Positions 196 through 10,674 of a DNA stretch of 12,528 nucleotides are shown here, piece after piece (positions within the stretch are counted from its first letter, which is position 1; each line of letters starts with the position of its first letter). The translations under genes and the position numbers were made by a program. The stretch comes from a bacterium (GTDB taxonomy: Bacteria > UBA9089 > CG2-30-40-21 > SBAY01). The DNA is taken from assembly GCA_040757115.1 (NCBI GenBank), contig JBFLYA010000115.1, positions 1-12,528 of the forward strand. The letters are read 5' to 3'. Below the pieces are notes generated by a model. That model worked only from the letters and a program-made list of their open reading frames with translations, searched no databases and was not told the DNA's origin.

Positions 196-279
196 TATAA
201 ATTTTTCCTGAGTCAACAAAAAAATTTCGTAACCGTCAGGTAGTCCTTTACCGCAGAGACGCAGAGGAACAGAGAAGAT

Positions 280-479
280 ATGGAAATAAATCAGATAACA
301 GAAAAGATTATTGGTGCAGCCATTGAAATACTTATGACCTGCTTGCCGACTGTTCAGCAGGCAAGCCAGATTTGTTAATCCATCCCTGATTTTCATCAGG
401 GCAAGTTTAATGTTGTTGTACTCAAGAGCTTGCACTGATGAAAATCAGGGATGTTAAGCGTATCGTCCATAAATTTTAA
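280..479 (+). pseudogene. Decayed GxxExxY-family gene inside the element
   Basis: An ATG at 280 begins MEINQITEKIIGAAIEI, which matches the characteristic N-terminus of GxxExxY proteins (small nuclease-like proteins usually about 125 residues). The match stops after about 17 codons, before the diagnostic GxxExxY motif, and the frame ends at about 378. A C-terminal remnant, MKIRDVKRIVHKF followed by TAA, is readable at 438-479 in another frame. An inverted copy of part of the same C-terminal region lies at 381-405. The gene therefore retains both termini, has lost its middle, and has partly folded back on itself. Family assignment is from memory of the consensus. A homologous remnant lies at 6033-6190. 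Confidence 0.6.
381..453. repeat. 25-bp inverted repeat (hairpin) within element copy 1
   Basis: Arms at 381-405 and 429-453 are reverse complements at 24 of 25 positions (core CATCCCTGATTTTCATCAG), with a 23-nt loop. The arms encode the same short peptide (MKIRD) on opposite strands, so the hairpin arose from an inverted duplication of the GxxExxY C-terminal segment. A single related arm, CGGATTTTCATCAG, occurs in the element at 6000-6245. No T-tract follows, so it is not a canonical terminator. Confidence 0.8.
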
Positions 480-533
480 TTTTCTTCTCTGCGTCTCTGT
501 GTCTCTGCGGTGAACGGTTACTAAAATTCAACC

Positions 534-563
534 TTGACAGGTGCAAGATTAATAATGTATAAT
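534..563 (+). promoter_or_regulatory. Sigma-70-type promoter of the GT9 gene
   Basis: A perfect -35 TTGACA (534-539) and perfect -10 TATAAT (558-563) are separated by 18 bases. The GT9 start codon at 572 is only 8 bases past the -10 box, so transcription would begin at about 569-572. The mRNA would be leaderless or nearly so, and the AGGGG at 564-568 would mostly lie upstream of the transcript. The -35 box is 12 bases from the end of the element at 229-521. Confidence 0.8.
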
Positions 564-571
564 AGGGGAAA

Positions 572-1627
572 ATGAAAATCTTGATTATTCAAACAGCATT
601 TATTGGAGATGTGATTTTAGGGACACCACTTTTGCAGACCATTGCCACGGCAGGAAGTATGGAGCACAAAGCACGAAACACGGAGCAGAAAGCAGGAAAC
701 AAAGAATTATCTATTATAACTACACCGCAAGGGAAAGAGATTTTAGATGGAAATCCTTATCTTAATCAGATAATTGTCTATGATAAAAAGGGACAAGATA
801 GGGGCTTTTTTAAATTCCTGGAAATGGTAAAAAAGATTAAAAGGGAAAAATTCGATATTGCGGTCATTCCACATCGTTCACTGCGAAGCAGTTTGTTGGC
901 TTATTTAGCTAAAATACCTGAAAGAATTGGATTTAACACAAGTGCTGGCTTTTTCTTGTTGACGAGAAAAGTCCCATATTTAAGAAATAAGCATGAAGTA
1001 GAGCGGAATTTAGAGTTAGCCTCCACAGGATTGGGAATTAAGGCAATTGAGCAAAATTTAAGTATTTTTTTATCGGAGAAAGAAAAGAATTTTGCCAGAA
1101 GATTCCTTGAGGAAAACAATGTTGGAGATGACTTTTTAATCGGGTTTGCCCCGGGGTCTATCTGGCAAACTAAACAATGGTTGACTTCAGGTTATGCCCG
1201 GGTGGGTGATGAATTAAGCAAAAACTACAAGGCGAAAATTATTATCTTTGGAAGTAAGGCGGACGCAGAAATAGCTGAAAAAATAAGCAAACAGATGAAA
1301 ATTACACCAATTATTGCCGCTGGTAAAACAAATCTTAAAGAATTATCTGCCTTAATTTCAAAATGTCATCTATTCGTTACGAATGATACCGCGCCAATGC
1401 ATATTGCGATGGCTTTTAAGATACCGACGGTGGCGATATTTGGTCCAACAACCCTGGATATTGGTTTTGGACCTTATGGTGAGAATTTTGTCGTGGTGGA
1501 GCGTTCAGGACTTGCCTGCCGACCTTGTAGTTTGCATGGTCCCCGTCAATGCCCGAAAAAACACTTTGCCTGTATGAATGAAATATCACCGCAAGAAGTC
1601 ATCTCGGCTTGCCAAAAACTTGTTTAA
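572..1627 (+). CDS. waaF: Glycosyltransferase family 9, lipopolysaccharide heptosyltransferase II-like
   Basis: This 351-residue protein has the full GT9 plan. The N-terminal Rossmann start is MKILIIQTAFIGDVILGTPLL, with the conserved Asp in the GD pair at residue 13. The second Rossmann half opens at FAPGSIWQTKQW (192-203). The ADP-sugar-binding signature FVTNDTAPMHIA spans 268-279 and IFGPTT 289-294. A C-terminal cysteine cluster (C316, C319, C327, C334) is typical of WaaF/RfaF relatives. Enzymes of this type transfer heptose from ADP-heptose to the growing LPS core on the cytoplasmic face of the inner membrane. The exact acceptor cannot be inferred, so the symbol is tentative. Residues about 29-44 look like an in-frame insertion from a 7-bp tandem repeat. 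The ATG is fixed by the conserved N-terminus. The gene ends tail to tail with the minus-strand operon, sharing three bases at the stop codons. Confidence 0.9.
   Translation: MKILIIQTAFIGDVILGTPLLQTIATAGSMEHKARNTEQKAGNKELSIITTPQGKEILDGNPYLNQIIVYDKKGQDRGFFKFLEMVKKIKREKFDIAVIPHRSLRSSLLAYLAKIPERIGFNTSAGFFLLTRKVPYLRNKHEVERNLELASTGLGIKAIEQNLSIFLSEKEKNFARRFLEENNVGDDFLIGFAPGSIWQTKQWLTSGYARVGDELSKNYKAKIIIFGSKADAEIAEKISKQMKITPIIAAGKTNLKELSALISKCHLFVTNDTAPMHIAMAFKIPTVAIFGPTTLDIGFGPYGENFVVVERSGLACRPCSLHGPRQCPKKHFACMNEISPQEVISACQKLV
656..704 (+). repeat. Degenerate 7-bp tandem repeat inside the GT9 coding sequence
   Basis: Seven consecutive 7-base units (AGTATGG, AGCACAA, AGCACGA, AACACGG, AGCAGAA, AGCAGGA, AACAAAG) fall in the coding sequence. 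They encode a low-complexity charged stretch, roughly SMEHKARNTEQKAGNK, placed where GT9 enzymes normally have a short turn between the first helix and the second beta strand (ELSIITTPQG). The reading frame is kept across the insertion. Confidence 0.65.
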
Positions 1628-3411
1628 TTGTAATTATTAAAGGTTCTATACACGATAACCTTTTCATCTTCATAAAAAGGCTTTTTAAATAAATTATGCA
1701 TAGAACTAAGAAAGTTATCCATATCTTCTTTCTTTGAAAAAATCTGGCATATTGACTGAGTGTTAGAATCCAGTACCAATTTTATAACTGGATTTAAAGC
1801 AAACGGAATTAATCCTCTCAGAAATTTTTCCTGCCTTGATTTAGGTGAAAAAGGCTTGAATCTTTCATTAAAAAACATTTCTTTATGAATTATAATATAT
1901 TTAATATTATATTCCTTTAAAATTTTTATACAATCTGCCTGTTTTATCTGTGTAATTTTTGTATTAATCTCAGAGGGATTTGTAAATATATTGATAAACC
2001 GAGTGTTGTAAATAAATTCTCTAACACCAGGAGATGGATGATTAATATATCCCCCTATTATCTTCTTTTGATGGATGGTTTGAAAATACATATTCAGACC
2101 TTGAACATAATTGTCTCCGTCATGAATCATTGTTTTAAAAGGGAGTTCGAGAACCGCATAATCTCCTTTTTCTTTTCCTAAATAGGCAAAAATTGGTGAT
2201 GGAGTAAATTTAGAAGCAGGTAAAGGTATAATTAAATATTCTAAGCATATTAACAAGGATATAATAGTTAATACCATAATAGCGTATTTTCCCCTGGAAA
2301 AATATTTGCATGTATATCCTGATAATACTGCTAAACACAACATTATCATTACCATATATCGCCATGGAGCTCGCATAAGACTCAATACAGGTAACTTATG
2401 TAATATTAACATCGGCAGAGGTATGTTATCATATATCTTTCCTAAAAAGACAGGATGAGGGCCCACAGAGAGGATAAAGAAAACAAAAATTATTACTATC
2501 CAGAATATTGCAATATACCTTTTCATTTTAAATAGAGAAGATGCGGCTAAAACTATGACTATATATCCATAAAATACAAACCAGCAGACAGAGAGAAAAG
2601 GAGAAAAACTAAATCCATACAAACTTGTTTGCATAGGAATCTGCCGTAAAGGCTTAAAGGTGATAAAACCTTTAAGTATTGGATATGCAAATGGGAAGAT
2701 TAATATTCCAAAGGTAATTATCATAAAAAGGGATTGCTTGATAAAATTTAGACAAAGGATTTTTTCACGCTCAAATATTAAGAAATACAGGATAAATATG
2801 ATGATAAAAAGAAAAGCAAACACCATATAATACCAGGATGATAAAGATATCAAGGTTAAAAAAATCCCTCCGGAAATTGCATTTTTTGTTCTGTTTCCCT
2901 CAAACATCTTTAATAAATAGAGGCAAAAGAAAGGAAACCATTCAATACTTAAAGGGTCTAACACACCATAGTGGAGTAAATGATACGGACAGAAGGCATA
3001 GATAATACCCGAAATGAATGCAGAAGGTCTATGGTCAGTAAGGTGTTTTACTAATAGATAGGTTCCAAATCCACTTACAACAACCGAAAATAAGAAAAGC
3101 AGATTATATACAGCTATTCTTCCCATAATTAGTTGTAATGGAATACCTAATAATAGCTTATCCCAGGCGAATTGCTGAAGACTTAAAGTAGTACCTGTGG
3201 GATAAAAAATTTCTGATGTAAAAAATGGTGTAGTATGTAATTCAAGTAAGGCTTTCTTTACCCACCATAGATTCCATAAGGTTAGTCCGAAGTCTCCAGT
3301 AGGGAATGCAAAAGGGGTATTAATTTTAAAGGCTATTGGGTAAGTAAATATGATAGTTAAGATAATATACCCAAAGAGAATGAGTCCATAGTTTCTCCAT
3401 AAATTTTTCAT
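1624..3411 (-). CDS. Polytopic membrane protein, GT-C-like, uncharacterised
   Basis: This 595-residue protein consists of roughly a dozen hydrophobic segments followed by a soluble C-terminal domain of about 180 residues. It starts with a membrane helix (GLILFGYIILTIIFTYPIAF). Next comes a first extracytoplasmic loop holding TGDFGLTLWNLWWVKKAL and FYPTGTTL, a pattern seen in many uncharacterised GT-C-type (polyprenyl-phosphate-sugar-using) membrane proteins. The segment SGIIYAFCPYHLLHYGVLDPLSIEWFP is also typical of that class. A role in transfer of a lipid-linked sugar outside the membrane is inference. It is the last gene of the minus-strand operon; its ATG is 12 bases after the GNAT stop. 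AGGAAGG (3415-3423 region) forms a good ribosome site. The C-terminal domain (with VLELPFKTMIHDGDN) is not recognised. Confidence 0.75.
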   Translation of the reverse strand: MKNLWRNYGLILFGYIILTIIFTYPIAFKINTPFAFPTGDFGLTLWNLWWVKKALLELHTTPFFTSEIFYPTGTTLSLQQFAWDKLLLGIPLQLIMGRIAVYNLLFLFSVVVSGFGTYLLVKHLTDHRPSAFISGIIYAFCPYHLLHYGVLDPLSIEWFPFFCLYLLKMFEGNRTKNAISGGIFLTLISLSSWYYMVFAFLFIIIFILYFLIFEREKILCLNFIKQSLFMIITFGILIFPFAYPILKGFITFKPLRQIPMQTSLYGFSFSPFLSVCWFVFYGYIVIVLAASSLFKMKRYIAIFWIVIIFVFFILSVGPHPVFLGKIYDNIPLPMLILHKLPVLSLMRAPWRYMVMIMLCLAVLSGYTCKYFSRGKYAIMVLTIISLLICLEYLIIPLPASKFTPSPIFAYLGKEKGDYAVLELPFKTMIHDGDNYVQGLNMYFQTIHQKKIIGGYINHPSPGVREFIYNTRFINIFTNPSEINTKITQIKQADCIKILKEYNIKYIIIHKEMFFNERFKPFSPKSRQEKFLRGLIPFALNPVIKLVLDSNTQSICQIFSKKEDMDNFLSSMHNLFKKPFYEDEKVIVYRTFNNYN

Positions 3412-3423
3412 TTTAGCACCTTC

Positions 3424-4473
3424 CTATATAATCATATCCAGGTCAGAATCACCGAGGGTAAGAAACCAATTTTTGGGTTCTCTTAAAAACTCCATCGGCA
3501 CATCGGGAATTATAGACCGGCCAATATATCTATAGACCGTAGAGCCCTTTCTCACAAAAAAGCCACATTTTTTAAGGGTCTTTAAATAGAAGGCATTTTT
3601 AGGCTCTAAACAACAGATAGAATTTACCTTTTGTTCTTTAAAATATTTTGTTGCCCGCCAGATAAGACTCTCAAATCCTTCTTTCTCTGCTAAAAAGTCA
3701 ACTATGTAACCTGTATTTTGATAGACTCGTAAGACAATATATCCTGATATCTCCTTTTTCTTTTCGGCTAAAAAGATAGTATATTGGACATCCGGACATC
3801 TAACAAACCGCCAATTTAAATACTTCATATCACGGATAGAGATGGCATTAAAGTTTTTAGAGATACGATTCCAGAAGTCGTCTATTCGGGAGTTAAAGGA
3901 CGAAATTTGAGTAAGAGTTATCAGTGGGGATTTTTTGGGTTTAAAGATAAGATCAGAAAGAAGATTTAAAGGAAGAGTAATGAATTTAGGTATTAATTTG
4001 TTTTTAACAAATTTAGTCACGGTGTTTTCCAGATTAACAGATTTTTTCATTAATGGATTAAAAGATATATGGACATCGAAACCAGCTATTCTTTTCCAAA
4101 GTAAATAAGCGGGTTCCGTTGGGAAACCAATATTTAAAGGATTTTCCTCATAAGCCTTTTTGATTAACAAATGCCCTCTGCCACGATATTTAGGATGGGT
4201 CATATGGTCAACTAACCAATATGCCTGGTAGGTTTTTGTGTTAATTAACACTTTGGTAGATATGCCACAGATAAATCCGGCTAATTGGCCTTTATATTCT
4301 AATATCCGAATAAAAGGACCTTCTTTGGGGTTATTGGGATTATCCTCAAATTTCCAGTCCCATCTTTTTCTACACACTTGGGCAATCTCTTTGCCCCATA
4401 CTTCCTCATATAATTTAAAAAGCAATTCTTTATCTTCCTTTGTGTATTTTCTTACAGACCATAGTTTTTCCAT
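3424..4473 (-). CDS. GNAT-family acyltransferase with two GNAT-like halves
   Basis: The 349-residue product starts VRKYTKEDKELLFKLYEEVWG, a classic GNAT beginning. It has the acetyl-CoA pyrophosphate-binding motif in THPKYRGRGHLLIKKAYEE (residues about 92-110). The second half has a repeated fold signal: IRDMKYLNWRFVRCPDVQYTIFLAE, then ISGYIVLRV, and a closing FYLKTLKKCGFFVRKGST. The YLNWRF...P...Y pattern is typical of the second domain of double-GNAT proteins found in surface-polysaccharide loci. The likely role is acylation of an amino sugar or glycan precursor in the cytoplasm. The substrate is unknown. It sits 15 bases after the radical SAM gene and 12 before the membrane-protein gene, so all are co-transcribed. 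The upstream ribosome site is weak, which suggests some translational coupling. Confidence 0.75.
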   Translation of the reverse strand: MEKLWSVRKYTKEDKELLFKLYEEVWGKEIAQVCRKRWDWKFEDNPNNPKEGPFIRILEYKGQLAGFICGISTKVLINTKTYQAYWLVDHMTHPKYRGRGHLLIKKAYEENPLNIGFPTEPAYLLWKRIAGFDVHISFNPLMKKSVNLENTVTKFVKNKLIPKFITLPLNLLSDLIFKPKKSPLITLTQISSFNSRIDDFWNRISKNFNAISIRDMKYLNWRFVRCPDVQYTIFLAEKKKEISGYIVLRVYQNTGYIVDFLAEKEGFESLIWRATKYFKEQKVNSICCLEPKNAFYLKTLKKCGFFVRKGSTVYRYIGRSIIPDVPMEFLREPKNWFLTLGDSDLDMII

Positions 4474-4488
4474 TTTTATTGCCTGAAT

Positions 4489-5925
4489 TTATACAGGAAT
4501 TTTAACCTTTTTTATTCCCCTTTTTGTAATTTTTAAACCTGTATGTAATTCAATTACATCTCTGATACCTTGTAAAGTTCTTTTTAAATTTCCGTCTGAA
4601 TAATATTTGATTTTTCGATGCCATTGAATTAATTTTTTTAAATCCGTTTCGCAAGTATAATAAGGTGCAAGTTTATCAGAAAGCCAGAAACTATCATCCA
4701 TAAAATTATATTTTTTTGCCCTTTCGTATAAGCCGGTCCCAGGAAAGACCATCGCAATCTGTAATTGAATAATATCCGGTCGAGTTTCTTGCAGAAGTTT
4801 TATTGTTTCATTTATACTCTGTTTATTTTCGCCTGGATTTCCCACCATTAAAAAGGCACCTGTAGTAATTCCAATTTTCTTTGTAAATTTCAAGACATTA
4901 ACCATTTCATCTCTTGAGGGTATTTTTTGAGTAACATTCTTCAGAACATCTGTCGAACCTGATTCAATTCCAAAACCAATAAATCTACATCCTGCCTCAT
5001 AGGCTATCTTTAGCATCTCCTCAGATACAAATTTTACACCTGTTTGAAATCCCCAGAATAATATATTAAGTTTTTTCTCTATGAGCATTTTAGAAAGCTC
5101 AATAACCCTTTTTTGGTCAACAGAAAAGATATCATCTATAAAAGCAAAGGTATTACAATTATAGTCATTATATAGCCACTCAATCTCTTTCATAATACTT
5201 GAAGCCGACCGTGCCCGCCATTTACTTCGCCAGATTTTGTTCACCGAGCAAAACTCACATCTAAAAGGGCATCCGCGTGAGGTTATAAGATAACCGGTTC
5301 GCAAGTCTTTATAATTTATTCCATTAATCTCAGCTATCTCACGAAGTAAATATCCTCCGGTGTACATATTAAAATCCATAAAATGGAAAGCAGGAAATGG
5401 GAGTGAATCAAGGTCACTAATAGATTCTCGCTCCTCAGTAGTAATCACCTTTTGGTTATGGAGATAGGCAATACCTTTAATCTTTCCTATTTCTCCCTGA
5501 TTTTGCCAGGTATTTACCAATTCCCGCATAGTATCTTCTCCCTCTCCTATTATTACTCCATCCACCGGGAAATTGGTAAGAATCTGTTCATACATTAATG
5601 TTGCATGTGGACCACCTAAAATAACCTTAATATTTTTATCTATTGCTTTAACCAGGTATATTAATTTAAATAGGCTACCCCGTTGGTCTGACAGCGTCGT
5701 AATTCCTACAATTTGAGGACAAAAATCTCTGATTTGTCTTTCCAACTGTTGCCAATTATATTGATATGCATCAATAATCTTTATCTCATGGCCATCTTTC
5801 TCTAATACCGCGCCAATAGAGAAAAGTCCAATAGGTGCAAAGGCAGATTCTACTGGCTCATCTTCTAAATATCTTGAATATGCAGATGGATGAAATAGAG
5901 GTGGATTTATTAATAGAAGTCTCAT
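4489..5925 (-). CDS. B12-binding-domain radical SAM protein
   Basis: With the ATG at 5925 the protein is 478 residues. The N-terminal Rossmann domain (1 to about 140) is of the B12-binding type: MRLLLINPP, APIGLFSIGAVLEKDGHEIKIIDAY, VILGGPHATL, IIGEGEDT. The cobalamin-ligating DxHxxG motif is not visible (DAYQYN instead), as in many members, so cobalamin binding is uncertain. The radical SAM core follows with CxxxCxxC at C219, C223 and C226 (RGCPFRCEFC) for the 4Fe-4S cluster. FGIESGSTDVL and FLMVGNPGE are further core motifs. An upstream GTG at 5988 would add 21 residues, but the ATG at 5925 opens the conserved MRLLLINPP and has GGAG nine bases upstream. Such enzymes methylate or rearrange lipid or sugar substrates. 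The reaction here is unknown. A mobile element now separates it from the flippase gene. Confidence 0.88.
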   Translation of the reverse strand: MRLLLINPPLFHPSAYSRYLEDEPVESAFAPIGLFSIGAVLEKDGHEIKIIDAYQYNWQQLERQIRDFCPQIVGITTLSDQRGSLFKLIYLVKAIDKNIKVILGGPHATLMYEQILTNFPVDGVIIGEGEDTMRELVNTWQNQGEIGKIKGIAYLHNQKVITTEERESISDLDSLPFPAFHFMDFNMYTGGYLLREIAEINGINYKDLRTGYLITSRGCPFRCEFCSVNKIWRSKWRARSASSIMKEIEWLYNDYNCNTFAFIDDIFSVDQKRVIELSKMLIEKKLNILFWGFQTGVKFVSEEMLKIAYEAGCRFIGFGIESGSTDVLKNVTQKIPSRDEMVNVLKFTKKIGITTGAFLMVGNPGENKQSINETIKLLQETRPDIIQLQIAMVFPGTGLYERAKKYNFMDDSFWLSDKLAPYYTCETDLKKLIQWHRKIKYYSDGNLKRTLQGIRDVIELHTGLKITKRGIKKVKIPV

Positions 5926-5934
5926 CGTTAATAA

Positions 5935-5938
5935 CTCC
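5935..5938 (-). promoter_or_regulatory. Ribosome binding site deciding the radical SAM start
   Basis: On the minus strand GGAG lies nine bases upstream of the ATG at 5925. It supports this start over the GTG at 5988, which lies in what used to be the end of the flippase gene. Confidence 0.6.
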
Positions 5939-5991
5939 ATTAAAACGAAACTGAGGTAATCCGTTTCTAATGCTTTTCCTCTTTGCACTCC

Positions 5992-5999
5992 CTGGTTTC
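5992..5999. repeat. 8-bp target-site duplication, left copy
   Basis: CTGGTTTC abuts the left end of the element at 6000. The identical octamer is at 6246-6253, directly after the right end at 6245. This is direct evidence of transposition into this spot. Confidence 0.9.
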
Positions 6000-6245
6000 G
6001 TCACCGTTCACCGCAGAGACGCAGAGAAAAAATTAAAAACTATTTACCACATGCTTCATTCCATCACGGATTTTCATCAGAGCAAGCTTTTGAAAACCGA
6101 CATATCATGATTGATTAACAAATTTGGTTTTGAGGGCCTATGTAGGACAATGATTGCCTCAATAATCTTTTCTGTTGTCTGATTTATTTCAATCTCTTCT
6201 CTGTTCCTCTGCGTCTCTGCGGTAAATTACCACCTGAACGGTTAC
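6000..6245 (-). mobile_element. Family 1 miniature inverted-repeat element, copy 2 (GxxExxY remnant cargo)
   Basis: This 246-bp element starts GTCACCGTTCA (6000-6010) and ends TGAACGGTTAC (6235-6245), an 11-bp TIR with one mismatch. It is flanked by the perfect 8-bp duplication CTGGTTTC. Internal inverted motifs CCGCAGAGACGCAGAG lie at 6011-6026 and, reverse complemented, at 6207-6222. The long end (TIR, GGTGGTAATTTA, then the CCGCAGAG motif) is on the right, so the element is inverted relative to the one at 229-521. It contains both termini of a GxxExxY gene on the minus strand. It fills the 316-base gap between the flippase and radical SAM genes. There is no transposase. Confidence 0.9.
6033..6190 (-). 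pseudogene. Decayed GxxExxY-family gene in element copy 2
   Basis: Reading the minus strand from 6190 gives EINQTTEKIIEAII, homologous to the start of the remnant at 280. After a deleted middle the sequence continues with NLLINHD and ends as MKIRDGMKHVVNSF with a stop (6077-6033), which matches the usual GxxExxY tail (DGIKRVVN). The frame between the two parts is broken by stops. It is non-functional. Internal deletions differ between the two copies, so both derive independently from a larger gene-bearing parent. Confidence 0.6.
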
Positions 6246-7732
6246 CTGGTTTCTTTCATAGTTTGAGACGACCATATCCTTAGACTTAACCATCTCTTTA
6301 TAAATTCAATATCCTCAGAAGTAATTATACCTATCTTAAATATCAAAATAATATAAACCGATATAAACACTAATCCTGCCATTAAAAGAGTGAATAAATC
6401 TGGATAGTTAAAAATGGTAATAGGATAAATTAAGAGACCACAACCTGAAGCAACTATAAAGATATTAATAAGATTTCTCCAGGGAAGAATACCGTCAAAT
6501 GGAATTTTTAATGAGTGTTTTATGATAAAAAAATAAAAGAATATAGTGAGATATGCAGATAACAAGATACCGATTGCCGGACCTATAAAACCCATAATCT
6601 GAACGAACAAAAGATTAAGGATAACATTTGAGATAAAAAATAGGGCGGCACCGGCAAAGATAGGTTTAGTTTGACCTATCCCCTCAAGAACCTCACCATA
6701 AAGAAGCATTCTTACCGGCAGTGCACATAAATAAATTCTAAAGATATTGGTGCTTTCGATGTAATTTTTTGTGAACAGCAAAGTTATAATTTCCTCACCC
6801 ATTGTAAATAAAAATACAAATATCGGTAGTATAATTAGGGCTATTTTGCTTATATATTTATGCCAGAGTTGAATCAATTCTTCCTTCCGAGATTGGTGAT
6901 GCAGTTCACTAAATTTTGGCATTAAGACATTTCCTGCTGGCAAAAATAGCATCTCGACCAATGCTACCTTAGATGTCCCAACCGCATAGATAGCATACCT
7001 TTGAACCGAGAAGAATATAGAAATTACAATCTTATCGACCATTACCCCTAATCCGCCCACAATCTCAGCCAAACCTCGTGGGAGAGTATATTTCAATTGG
7101 GAACGGAGTAATTGAGGATTCCAATTAAATTCCCATCCCTTCATTAAATATACGGTGTAGAAAAGCATTAAACCGCAGGAAATACTGCCAAATACTACCA
7201 TCCAGTTAATTAGCCCGGCTAATCCATAACCTAAAAATAAAGGAATGATAACTATAAATGCAATGATAGTGTTTACTATCGATAAACCAGCAGATAATTT
7301 TTGTCTATCTACCGCAAGTAATAAATAGTTAAAATATGCCGCCGGGAAAGTAAAAAATAGATATATGCTCAGTATCTTTAGTAACTTTGATAAATCAGGG
7401 TTATTAAAGTAATCTCCGATATTTTTAGAAAGACACCAGAGGATACAAGAAGAAGTCAATCCCAACAGTGATAAAATGATAATTGATTGAATGACAAATC
7501 CTGCTCGTTCAATTTTTACTCTCGGAATAAAATAAGCGATACTTCGTGGAATACCTAATGAGAAAATAACTGTAACTATTGTCGAAATAAGCATTATCTG
7601 TTTATAAGTGCCGTAGTCAGATATAGATAATATTCTGACAAGTATCATACTCAGAACTAATCCAGATACTCCACTAATAACATTGGATAAGACAACTATC
7701 GCGACTTTATCTGAAAGAGAAAATTTTGCCAT
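6242..7732 (-). CDS. Wzx-type polysaccharide/oligosaccharide flippase
   Basis: The 496-residue protein is almost entirely hydrophobic, with about 12-14 membrane segments. It opens with the typical flippase start SNVISGVSGLVLSMILVRILSISDYGTYKQI, the R-x-L...YG-x-Y signature of the polysaccharide-export branch of the MOP superfamily. Cytoplasmic-loop residues such as AGNVLMPKFSELHHQSRKEEL and later ALPVRMLLYGEVLEGIGQTKPIF also fit. It would move lipid-linked glycan units across the inner membrane. It is first in the minus-strand operon with its own promoter at 7744-7772. The stop codon TAA (6242-6244) belongs to the inserted element: without the insertion the frame would continue for seven more codons (ECKEEKH) to TAG at 5967-5969. 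The loss affects only the tail and is probably tolerated. Confidence 0.88.
   Translation of the reverse strand: MAKFSLSDKVAIVVLSNVISGVSGLVLSMILVRILSISDYGTYKQIMLISTIVTVIFSLGIPRSIAYFIPRVKIERAGFVIQSIIILSLLGLTSSCILWCLSKNIGDYFNNPDLSKLLKILSIYLFFTFPAAYFNYLLLAVDRQKLSAGLSIVNTIIAFIVIIPLFLGYGLAGLINWMVVFGSISCGLMLFYTVYLMKGWEFNWNPQLLRSQLKYTLPRGLAEIVGGLGVMVDKIVISIFFSVQRYAIYAVGTSKVALVEMLFLPAGNVLMPKFSELHHQSRKEELIQLWHKYISKIALIILPIFVFLFTMGEEIITLLFTKNYIESTNIFRIYLCALPVRMLLYGEVLEGIGQTKPIFAGAALFFISNVILNLLFVQIMGFIGPAIGILLSAYLTIFFYFFIIKHSLKIPFDGILPWRNLINIFIVASGCGLLIYPITIFNYPDLFTLLMAGLVFISVYIILIFKIGIITSEDIEFIKRWLSLRIWSSQTMKETR
6246..6253. repeat. 8-bp target-site duplication, right copy
   Basis: CTGGTTTC is identical to 5992-5999. 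It lies within the last codons of the flippase gene (reads GAAACCAG on the coding strand). Confidence 0.9.
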
Positions 7733-7743
7733 TTGCTTTGATT

Positions 7744-7772
7744 AATATAACATATAACGATAAGAAAGTCAA
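7744..7772 (-). promoter_or_regulatory. Sigma-70-type promoter of the flippase operon
   Basis: On the minus strand TTGACT (7772-7767) and TATATT (7749-7744) are separated by exactly 17 bases, and TGT precedes the -10 box as in extended -10 promoters. The ATG at 7732 follows the -10 by 11 bases and has no visible Shine-Dalgarno sequence, so the mRNA leader would be only a few bases or absent. This matches the arrangement at the GT9 gene. Confidence 0.7.
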
Positions 7773-7786
7773 GGGTTTATTTTTGT

Positions 7787-7927
7787 AACAGAAATTCTCG
7801 GTGAAAAATTAGATAGAGACTCATTATTCCTTATTTTCCTCTCAAAATCTTTACGAAAAATTTTTTTCTCTATCTCTCCTCAACATAGGTGAATTCAGTT
7901 TCTAAAAATTCACCGAGAATTGCTGTT
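7787..7927. repeat. 19-bp inverted repeat flanking about 100 bp, next to element copy 3
   Basis: Arms 7787-7805 and 7909-7927 (core AATTCTCGGTGAA / TTCACCGAGAATT) match at 18 of 19 positions. A second nested pair, AGATAGAGA (7811-7819) and TCTCTATCT (7867-7875), lies inside. It ends three bases before the TIR at 7931. It may be the remnant of an older element or a large cruciform near the flippase promoter. No coding sequence is seen in it. Confidence 0.6.
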
Positions 7928-8068
7928 TTTGTAACCGTTCAGGATATAGCCACAGAGTCACAGAGAACACAGAGGGAATATATAACCACGAATGAACACA
8001 AATACAAAAAGATTTGTAGTGCGCGGCTAAAGCCTCGTATGTGTTTAGCGTATTTATGCATTGGATAC

Positions 8069-8265
8069 AAACCTGAAAGGTTTGAATTTTACATAACCGT
8101 AGGTGAAACCTACGGAAATGGACATCTACGATGTCTCTCAACCCTGAAAGGGTTGAATTTTAAACGAGGGATAAAATTCGACCCTTTCAGGGTCGCAGAG
8201 TGCATGTATGTGTTTCTTCCGTAGATTGCATCTACGGTTATGTGAAGTTTGACGCTTTCAGCGTC
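8069..8265. repeat. Array of six REP-like hairpins
   Basis: Six perfect interrupted palindromes, each with a 3-base loop, lie at 8069-8083, 8097-8115, 8139-8155, 8179-8195, 8219-8237 and 8251-8265. Examples are CAACCCT-GAA-AGGGTTG and CCGTAGGT-GAA-ACCTACGG. The first three have GAA loops. The last three have TTC, TGC and TTC loops and run as a mirror image, with the spacer ACATAACCGTAG recurring inverted (8092 onward and near 8233-8243). The array is therefore a large palindrome built of small palindromes, similar in style to REP/BIME sequences. Confidence 0.85.
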
Positions 8266-8320
8266 GGGGAAAAATATCGTCACGCTAAACACATACAAAG
8301 CCTCGCACTACAAATCTTTT

Positions 8321-8497
8321 CGACCTGTGCGGTTAAATGTAAAATGGATAATGTAAAATGAGAAATGTAAAATGAAAATGTATAACTGAAAGGTAACGAG
8401 TCTTGCGAAGTACTAAAATTTCCCATTTTTCATTTCCTATTTTACATTTATTTTTCCTTTGCGTCTGGGCGATGAATTAGTCTAATCGCACAGGTGG
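8321..8497. mobile_element. Family 2 miniature inverted-repeat element, nested copy
   Basis: This 177-bp element starts CGACCTGTGCGGTTA and ends TAATCGCACAGGTGG; the 15-bp ends match at 13 positions. It is flanked by a perfect 8-bp duplication AATCTTTT (8313-8320 and 8498-8505). It lies inside the right arm of the 7931-8583 element, and removing it restores that arm's pairing with the left arm. The interior has repeated AATGTAAAATG-type blocks that pair with TATTTTACATTT further on, giving a second inverted repeat. It encodes nothing recognisable. Confidence 0.9.
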
Positions 8498-8670
8498 AAT
8501 CTTTTTATTATTTGTGTTCATTCGTGCTTATATATTCCCTCTGTGTTCTCTGTGACTCTGTGGCTATATCCCTGAACGGTTACAAAAATTCCCGAACCCC
8601 GATTTTCAGGAAAAATTGCTGTCTGCCAATAAAAACTTTATTTTATAAGCACTTAAGTAAAAAAATAAGT

Positions 8671-10496: not shown

Positions 10497-10674
10497 CGAC
10501 CTGTGCAATTAGAAATAAAAGGATAATTGATTAAACAGATTACATTTTTTATTGTAAGCGGATTGAACGGATTGAACGGATTTTTTTTATTTCTTTTTCC
10601 GTTAAATCCGCTTACTAAATCCACCCGCTTACTATTAAAAATCTGCTTCCTTAATTTTCTACCTGCACAGGTCG
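10497..10674. mobile_element. Family 2 miniature inverted-repeat element, copy 2
   Basis: This 178-bp element starts CGACCTGTGCAATTAGAAA and ends in the reverse complement of CGACCTGTGCAGGTAGAAA, matching 17 of 19 positions. It is flanked by a perfect 8-bp duplication CAATTTTT (10489-10496 and 10675-10682). It inserted directly after the TAG stop of the HTH-TPR gene (10486-10488) without touching the coding sequence. The middle has a long hairpin, GTAAGCGGATTGAACGG pairing with CCGTTAAATCCGCTTAC at 16 of 17 positions, with a short GAACGGATT tandem repeat and a T8 run in the loop. The hairpin may now serve as the gene's 3' end. The remaining bases to the next promoter (10683-10859) are pyrimidine-rich and hold nothing I can name. 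Confidence 0.9.

Follow-up and report, generated by a model that had tools for sequence, protein, structure and literature searches.

Does a 12,528-nucleotide stretch of a draft bacterial genome (the window) hold members of one mobile family, what moves them, and where do their dissimilar interiors come from? A first-pass annotation had recognized three segments with common ends and different interiors and read them as a non-autonomous, MITE-like family with interchangeable cargo. We propose that the segments are non-autonomous MITEs and mobile insertion cassettes (MICs) moved in trans by an IS66 transposase of the ISBst12 type, a reading to which we assign a probability of about 0.88.

Elements of the window and their copies across the genome

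Element 1 (229-521, forward strand, 293 bp), element 2 (6000-6245, reverse strand, 246 bp), and element 3 (7931-8583, 653 bp, unstranded) lie where the first-pass annotation placed them, with minor corrections to the ends of the first two, and carry no transposase. Element 1, a putative IS66-type MITE recognized by its ends and octamers, has one T missing from its left end (GTAACCGT-CAGG) and lies between aaaatttc and taaaattc, which agree at 6/8 positions. Element 2 belongs to the same subfamily in the opposite orientation; its left end, GTCACCGTTCA, has one mismatch, and its target duplication ctggtttc (5992-5999 and 6246-6253) is perfect at 8/8. The one perfect duplication and one 6/8 candidate first described both hold. 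Element 3 has two perfect GTAACCGTTCAGG ends and CACAGAG subterminal inverted repeats, and its flanks, ctgttttt and aaaaattc, form no target duplication.

Element 3 is a composite. Its hairpin-rich stretch at 8068-8265, built of AACCCTGAAAGGGTTGAAT-type units, is a bounded repeat that recurs as a unit, with dozens of dispersed copies, in a genome from another family of the same phylum. At 8321-8497 it also holds a nested MITE of a second family (CGACCTGTG ends; duplication AATCTTTT). A further copy in the window, at 10497-10674, has CGACCTGTGC ends and is flanked by the perfect 8-bp duplication CAATTTTT. Exact 8-bp duplications bracket 7/10 of the adjacent pairs of this second family in 1.89 Mb of contigs; no mobilizer was identified for it. 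An Rfam scan of the window found no RNA family.

Two genes adjoin element 2. A flippase-like (polysaccharide) ORF at 6242-7732 on the reverse strand ends in a TAA within the element's end, and its stop codon appears to have been set by the insertion. On the other side lies a radical-SAM-like gene (4489-5988); the genome of a congeneric species (G001) lacks it at the equivalent place, the gene's neighbors lying only a few bases apart there.

The ends are abundant throughout the source genome, a 4.32 Mb draft in 462 contigs. Allowing at most one mismatch, GTAACCGTTCA occurs 508 times in forward and 511 times in reverse orientation. The reversed pattern, used as control, occurs 32 and 33 times, so this abundance is not due to chance. 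The counts correspond to ~480-500 element equivalents, or an estimated 2.5-3% of the genome as we derive it from end counts and a median length of ~237 bp. Within the 1.89 Mb of contigs covered by the pair analysis (44% of the genome), 43 of 108 adjacent left-right pairs are flanked by an exact 8-bp repeat, where shuffling predicts 0.4, and none of the 108 by an exact 9-bp repeat. A wider test over the same 1.89 Mb, with GTAACCGTTCA and the variants GTAAGCGTTCA and GTAACTATTCA, which likewise start with GTAA, and with all pairings under 2.5 kb, gave exact octamers for 65/346 pairs and for 0 in a register shifted by one. Target octamers are weakly palindromic and AT-rich (23% GC vs 37% in the examined DNA).

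Elements with exact duplications have a median length of 237 bp; the 237-bp subfamily includes copies that are identical end to end, and interiors differ between subfamilies, as the first-pass annotation had observed within the window. Short and transposase-less, with IS-like ends, a target duplication, and ~500 copies, these elements have the properties of MITEs. The search for paired ends and flanking octamers that the annotation proposed was productive on both counts, and duplications, copy number, and the passengers described below support its notion of a non-autonomous family with interchangeable cargo.

Movement and a candidate IS66 partner

The elements move. G001 has the same subfamilies, with 15 exact duplications in 53 pairs, and insertions in one species correspond to orthologous empty sites with a single octamer in the other, the closest comparisons being at 97-98% identity. 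In G001, a member of the element 1 subfamily (294 bp) is flanked by gagcggtg at a site that is empty in the source genome (98% identity), and a 235-bp copy by aaaaaatc at another such site (95% identity); conversely, a GTAACTATTCA-ended element of the source genome with cattaaat faces an empty site in G001 (98% identity). At the site of element 2, G001 has one octamer copy (ttggtttc) and no element, a comparison that is half resolved, as the neighboring radical-SAM-like gene is missing there too. Near the sites of elements 1 and 3, the G001 contigs break.

A search of the source genome for IS66 transposases (PF03050) yielded five matches. One, on contig C277, lies in a complete IS66 element of ~1.56 kb, the only full-length one that we found in the assembly with the ends of the family. 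It is bounded by GTAACCGTTCAGGTAT and GTAACCGTTCAGGTAGG, and its single transposase ORF is decayed by two in-frame stops; the full-length IS with the same ends and a transposase gene that the first-pass annotation had suggested looking for thus exists, in decayed form. Its flanks, ttattttt and aaaaactt, form no target duplication. Recombination or assembly may be behind this, and it concerns one decayed partner copy, not the MITEs. Elsewhere in the same order, G004 encodes an intact-frame IS66 transposase of 468 aa between GTAACCGTTCAC ends (NF033517, 270 bits, cut-off 180) and G005 one of 522 aa between GTAACTACTCAGG ends. The G004 and C277 elements have the same 11-bp ends as those of the window. 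No exact target duplication was found among the IS66 elements examined in the source genome and its relatives. Single-ORF status (no tnpA/tnpB) was judged from element length and ORF content only.

IS66 transposition has been insufficiently characterized to date (PMC12898284). ISDge4, an active element of the single-ORF ISBst12 group, has the end GTAACTGCTCAGCA and generates an 8-bp repeat (PMC12898284); ends of long-form IS66 elements include GTAAGCGTCC of ISPsko1 and GTAACCGTCC of ISPa75/ISPsy43 (PMC12888890). The window elements resemble the ISBst12 group in their GTAA-type ends, their 8-bp duplication, and the single-ORF DDE_Tnp_IS66 transposase of the presumed partner; they differ from it in having no transposase, and the partner in the source genome is decayed.

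We suggest that a single-ORF transposase of the ISBst12 type would act in trans on the elements, recognizing GTAA[C/G]CGTTCA-type ends and inserting into AT-rich, weakly palindromic octamers, which would give the 8-bp duplication. We infer that the elements were moved by the C277 transposase or by an intact copy of it that escaped assembly, which is conceivable in a draft of 462 contigs. The interiors would have arisen by capture of gene cassettes and subsequent internal deletion, such that an element with a surviving passenger gene would be a MIC and one without it a MITE.

Two other readings of the elements bear on this proposal. Strong inverted repeats are found in all copies, and most copies are intergenic, as would be expected of structural or regulatory repeats, REP-like or terminator-like, that are fixed at syntenic places and are not transposons. 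The 65 exact 8-bp duplications and the empty orthologous sites led us to reject this account, to which we give almost no credence. Alternatively, the mobilizer could belong to another transposase family with 8-bp duplications (IS256, ISL3, or IS6 type, for instance) and recognize similar ends by chance: duplications of this length also occur outside IS66, and among the families giving 8-bp repeats our transposase search covered IS66. Yet the source genome and other genomes of the order contain IS66 elements sharing these 11-bp ends, and GTAA ends match IS66 elements in the literature, making another family improbable. Among the candidate groups initially named (IS66, ISL3, IS256, and IS6), IS66 of the ISBst12 type is the supported partner.

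Passenger genes and the origin of the interiors

GxxExxY genes (TIGR04256; PF13366) account for part of the cargo. The source genome has 68 matches to this family, mostly fragments, and a detectable GxxExxY stretch is present in 23/65 of the elements with exact duplications. Element 1 aligns at both ends to a 472-bp GxxExxY element, with 97% identity across the initial 107 bases and 96% across the final 80; it lacks the middle of the gene but keeps the gene start at 281-331 (MEINQITEKIIGAAIEI). Element 2 matches GxxExxY elements at 88-90% identity across its initial 107 bases and retains a remnant of the gene. On these alignments, elements 1 and 2 are best described as internal-deletion remnants of a GxxExxY-bearing element.

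Other copies retain passengers between IS ends, with a target duplication and no IS transposase, which is the organization of MICs, and three kinds of passenger are represented. A GxxExxY gene occupies L042 1410-1905, with the exact duplication TTATACAC, and another, with one stop, L077 14892-15402 (GATAGGTG). A four-helix protein (23S rRNA intervening-sequence protein) is carried at L121 15465-15948 (AATAATTC) and an Rpn-family nuclease at L154 4176-6117 (AAAAAATC), each duplication again being exact. MITEs of the GxxExxY subfamily are, on sequence comparison, putative deletion products of such MICs; the interiors of several other subfamilies were traced to no gene.

Because of its profile matches (PF13366, 2.6e-45; TIGR04256, 3.6e-47), we regard the fold of the GxxExxY passenger as settled: it is a predicted nuclease of the PD-(D/E)XK superfamily, with a D-X9-E-X-K motif (D68, E78, K80) invariant in 57 proteins. 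Copies in the source genome have as outer sequences GTAACCGTTCA, GTAACTATTCA, the CCTGTG type, or none that we recognized. In elements 1 and 2, the CCGCAGAG motif is part of the GxxExxY gene cassette and not of the IS.

Periodic inverted repeats around the cargo genes

In a sample of other genomes from many families, with taxa as returned by the search tool, the upstream and downstream flanks of 36/44 GxxExxY loci form a strong inverted repeat with each other (score of 32 or more), compared with 0/40 stretches ~640-900 bp away, 0/220 shuffles, and 0/29 ribosomal S20 genes, the last drawn from the second sample of genomes. These flank repeats have a period of 8-10 bp (for example CACAGAGG, CGCAAAGG, and CGCAGATTA), CGCAGAG being one version, and a strict run test detects periodic runs in 35/88 flanks. 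Four-helix genes of many bacteria (loci L315-L344) lie between inverted arrays of 7-bp units at 23/29 loci, with 7-bp periodic runs in 49/60 of their flanks vs 6/58 S20 flanks. Bacteroides finegoldii and Bernardetia plasmids provide named cases with inverted CACAGAG-type flanks. The CCGCAGAGACGCAGAG motif is not an IS feature. Because GxxExxY and four-helix genes elsewhere lie between short-period inverted repeats, the interchangeable cargo appears to be a widespread kind of cassette that has repeatedly been taken up by IS66 ends. On the Sphingomonas parapaucimobilis plasmid, a GxxExxY gene (L347 661-1126) sits within the fabD-fabG pair at spacings of 33 bp and 2 bp.

Scanning the collection for an end plus CCGCAGAG returned only two loci, from one Chloroflexi draft, both MITE-like and without a GxxExxY gene; the kin of the window possibly lie outside this collection. 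In that draft (67% GC), a short element at L176 4587-4710 combines GTAACCGTTCA-like ends with CCGCAGAGACGCAGAG repeats, which suggests transfer or convergence across phyla.

These flanks raise the possibility that the cassettes are themselves mobile, with the short-period inverted repeats as their ends, a small protein of PD-(D/E)XK nuclease fold or an Avd-like four-helix bundle driving their spread, and IS66 ends as a secondary capture. The inverted flanks (36/44 and 23/29 against none at S20 genes or distant stretches), the several different outer sequences of GxxExxY copies in the source genome, and the invariance of D-X9-E-X-K all fit such a scheme. We nevertheless consider it unlikely as an account of the elements described here: the exact duplications of the source genome are found outside the IS66 ends, and IS66 thus accounts for recent movement there; moreover, no empty site or target duplication was found outside IS-type ends in a strict test of low sensitivity. 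A strict scan for ends plus duplication around GxxExxY genes of other genomes gave no match, but it also missed known cases in the source genome, so its negative outcome does not speak for absence. As a broader and still tentative view, which we hold with somewhat less than even confidence, GxxExxY and four-helix genes could be the cores of bacteria-wide self-spreading cassettes, each class marked by its inverted tandem repeats of short period (8-10 bp and 7 bp, respectively) and repeatedly captured by IS66-type or other ends, with the abundant intergenic repeats of CACAGAG/CGCAAAG type in many bacteria as their debris. We found no study in the open-access literature of GxxExxY/PF13366 as mobile elements or of self-moving cassettes.

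The proposed mechanism is ordinary (IS66 MITEs, MICs); copy number and variety of cargo are unusual. MITECca01 of Cardinium reaches 169 copies and 3.5% of the chromosome (PMC9769881) and is likewise short, transposase-less, and abundant, with IS-derived ends and nested insertions; unlike it, the present family has ~500 copies, IS66-type rather than IS982-type ends, many unrelated interiors per end, and traced interiors that come from passenger genes, not from a transposase gene. MICs were first identified in Bacillus cereus, according to a study citing that work (PMC3281130), and passenger-carrying IS66 elements exist as tIS66 (PMC12888890). Both share a passenger gene between IS ends, and MICs the absence of a transposase; in contrast, a single genome here combines GxxExxY, four-helix, and Rpn passengers, with MITEs as decay products of the GxxExxY type. 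In Xanthomonas and Nostoc, intergenic heptamer repeats are also tandem 7-bp units, sometimes in inverted pairs (PMC4692102). In our case, the inverted pairs flank a four-helix-bundle gene, which a text search of that paper did not find mentioned.

In this lineage, ~500 transposase-less copies with IS66-type ends and several unrelated passengers allow the successive stages of cargo capture and decay to be followed. The elements of the source genome also point to a broader class of periodic-repeat cassettes. With this association, the identity of two very common gene families as mobile cassettes would become testable, and such cassettes may offer an origin for the periodic intergenic repeats of many genomes.
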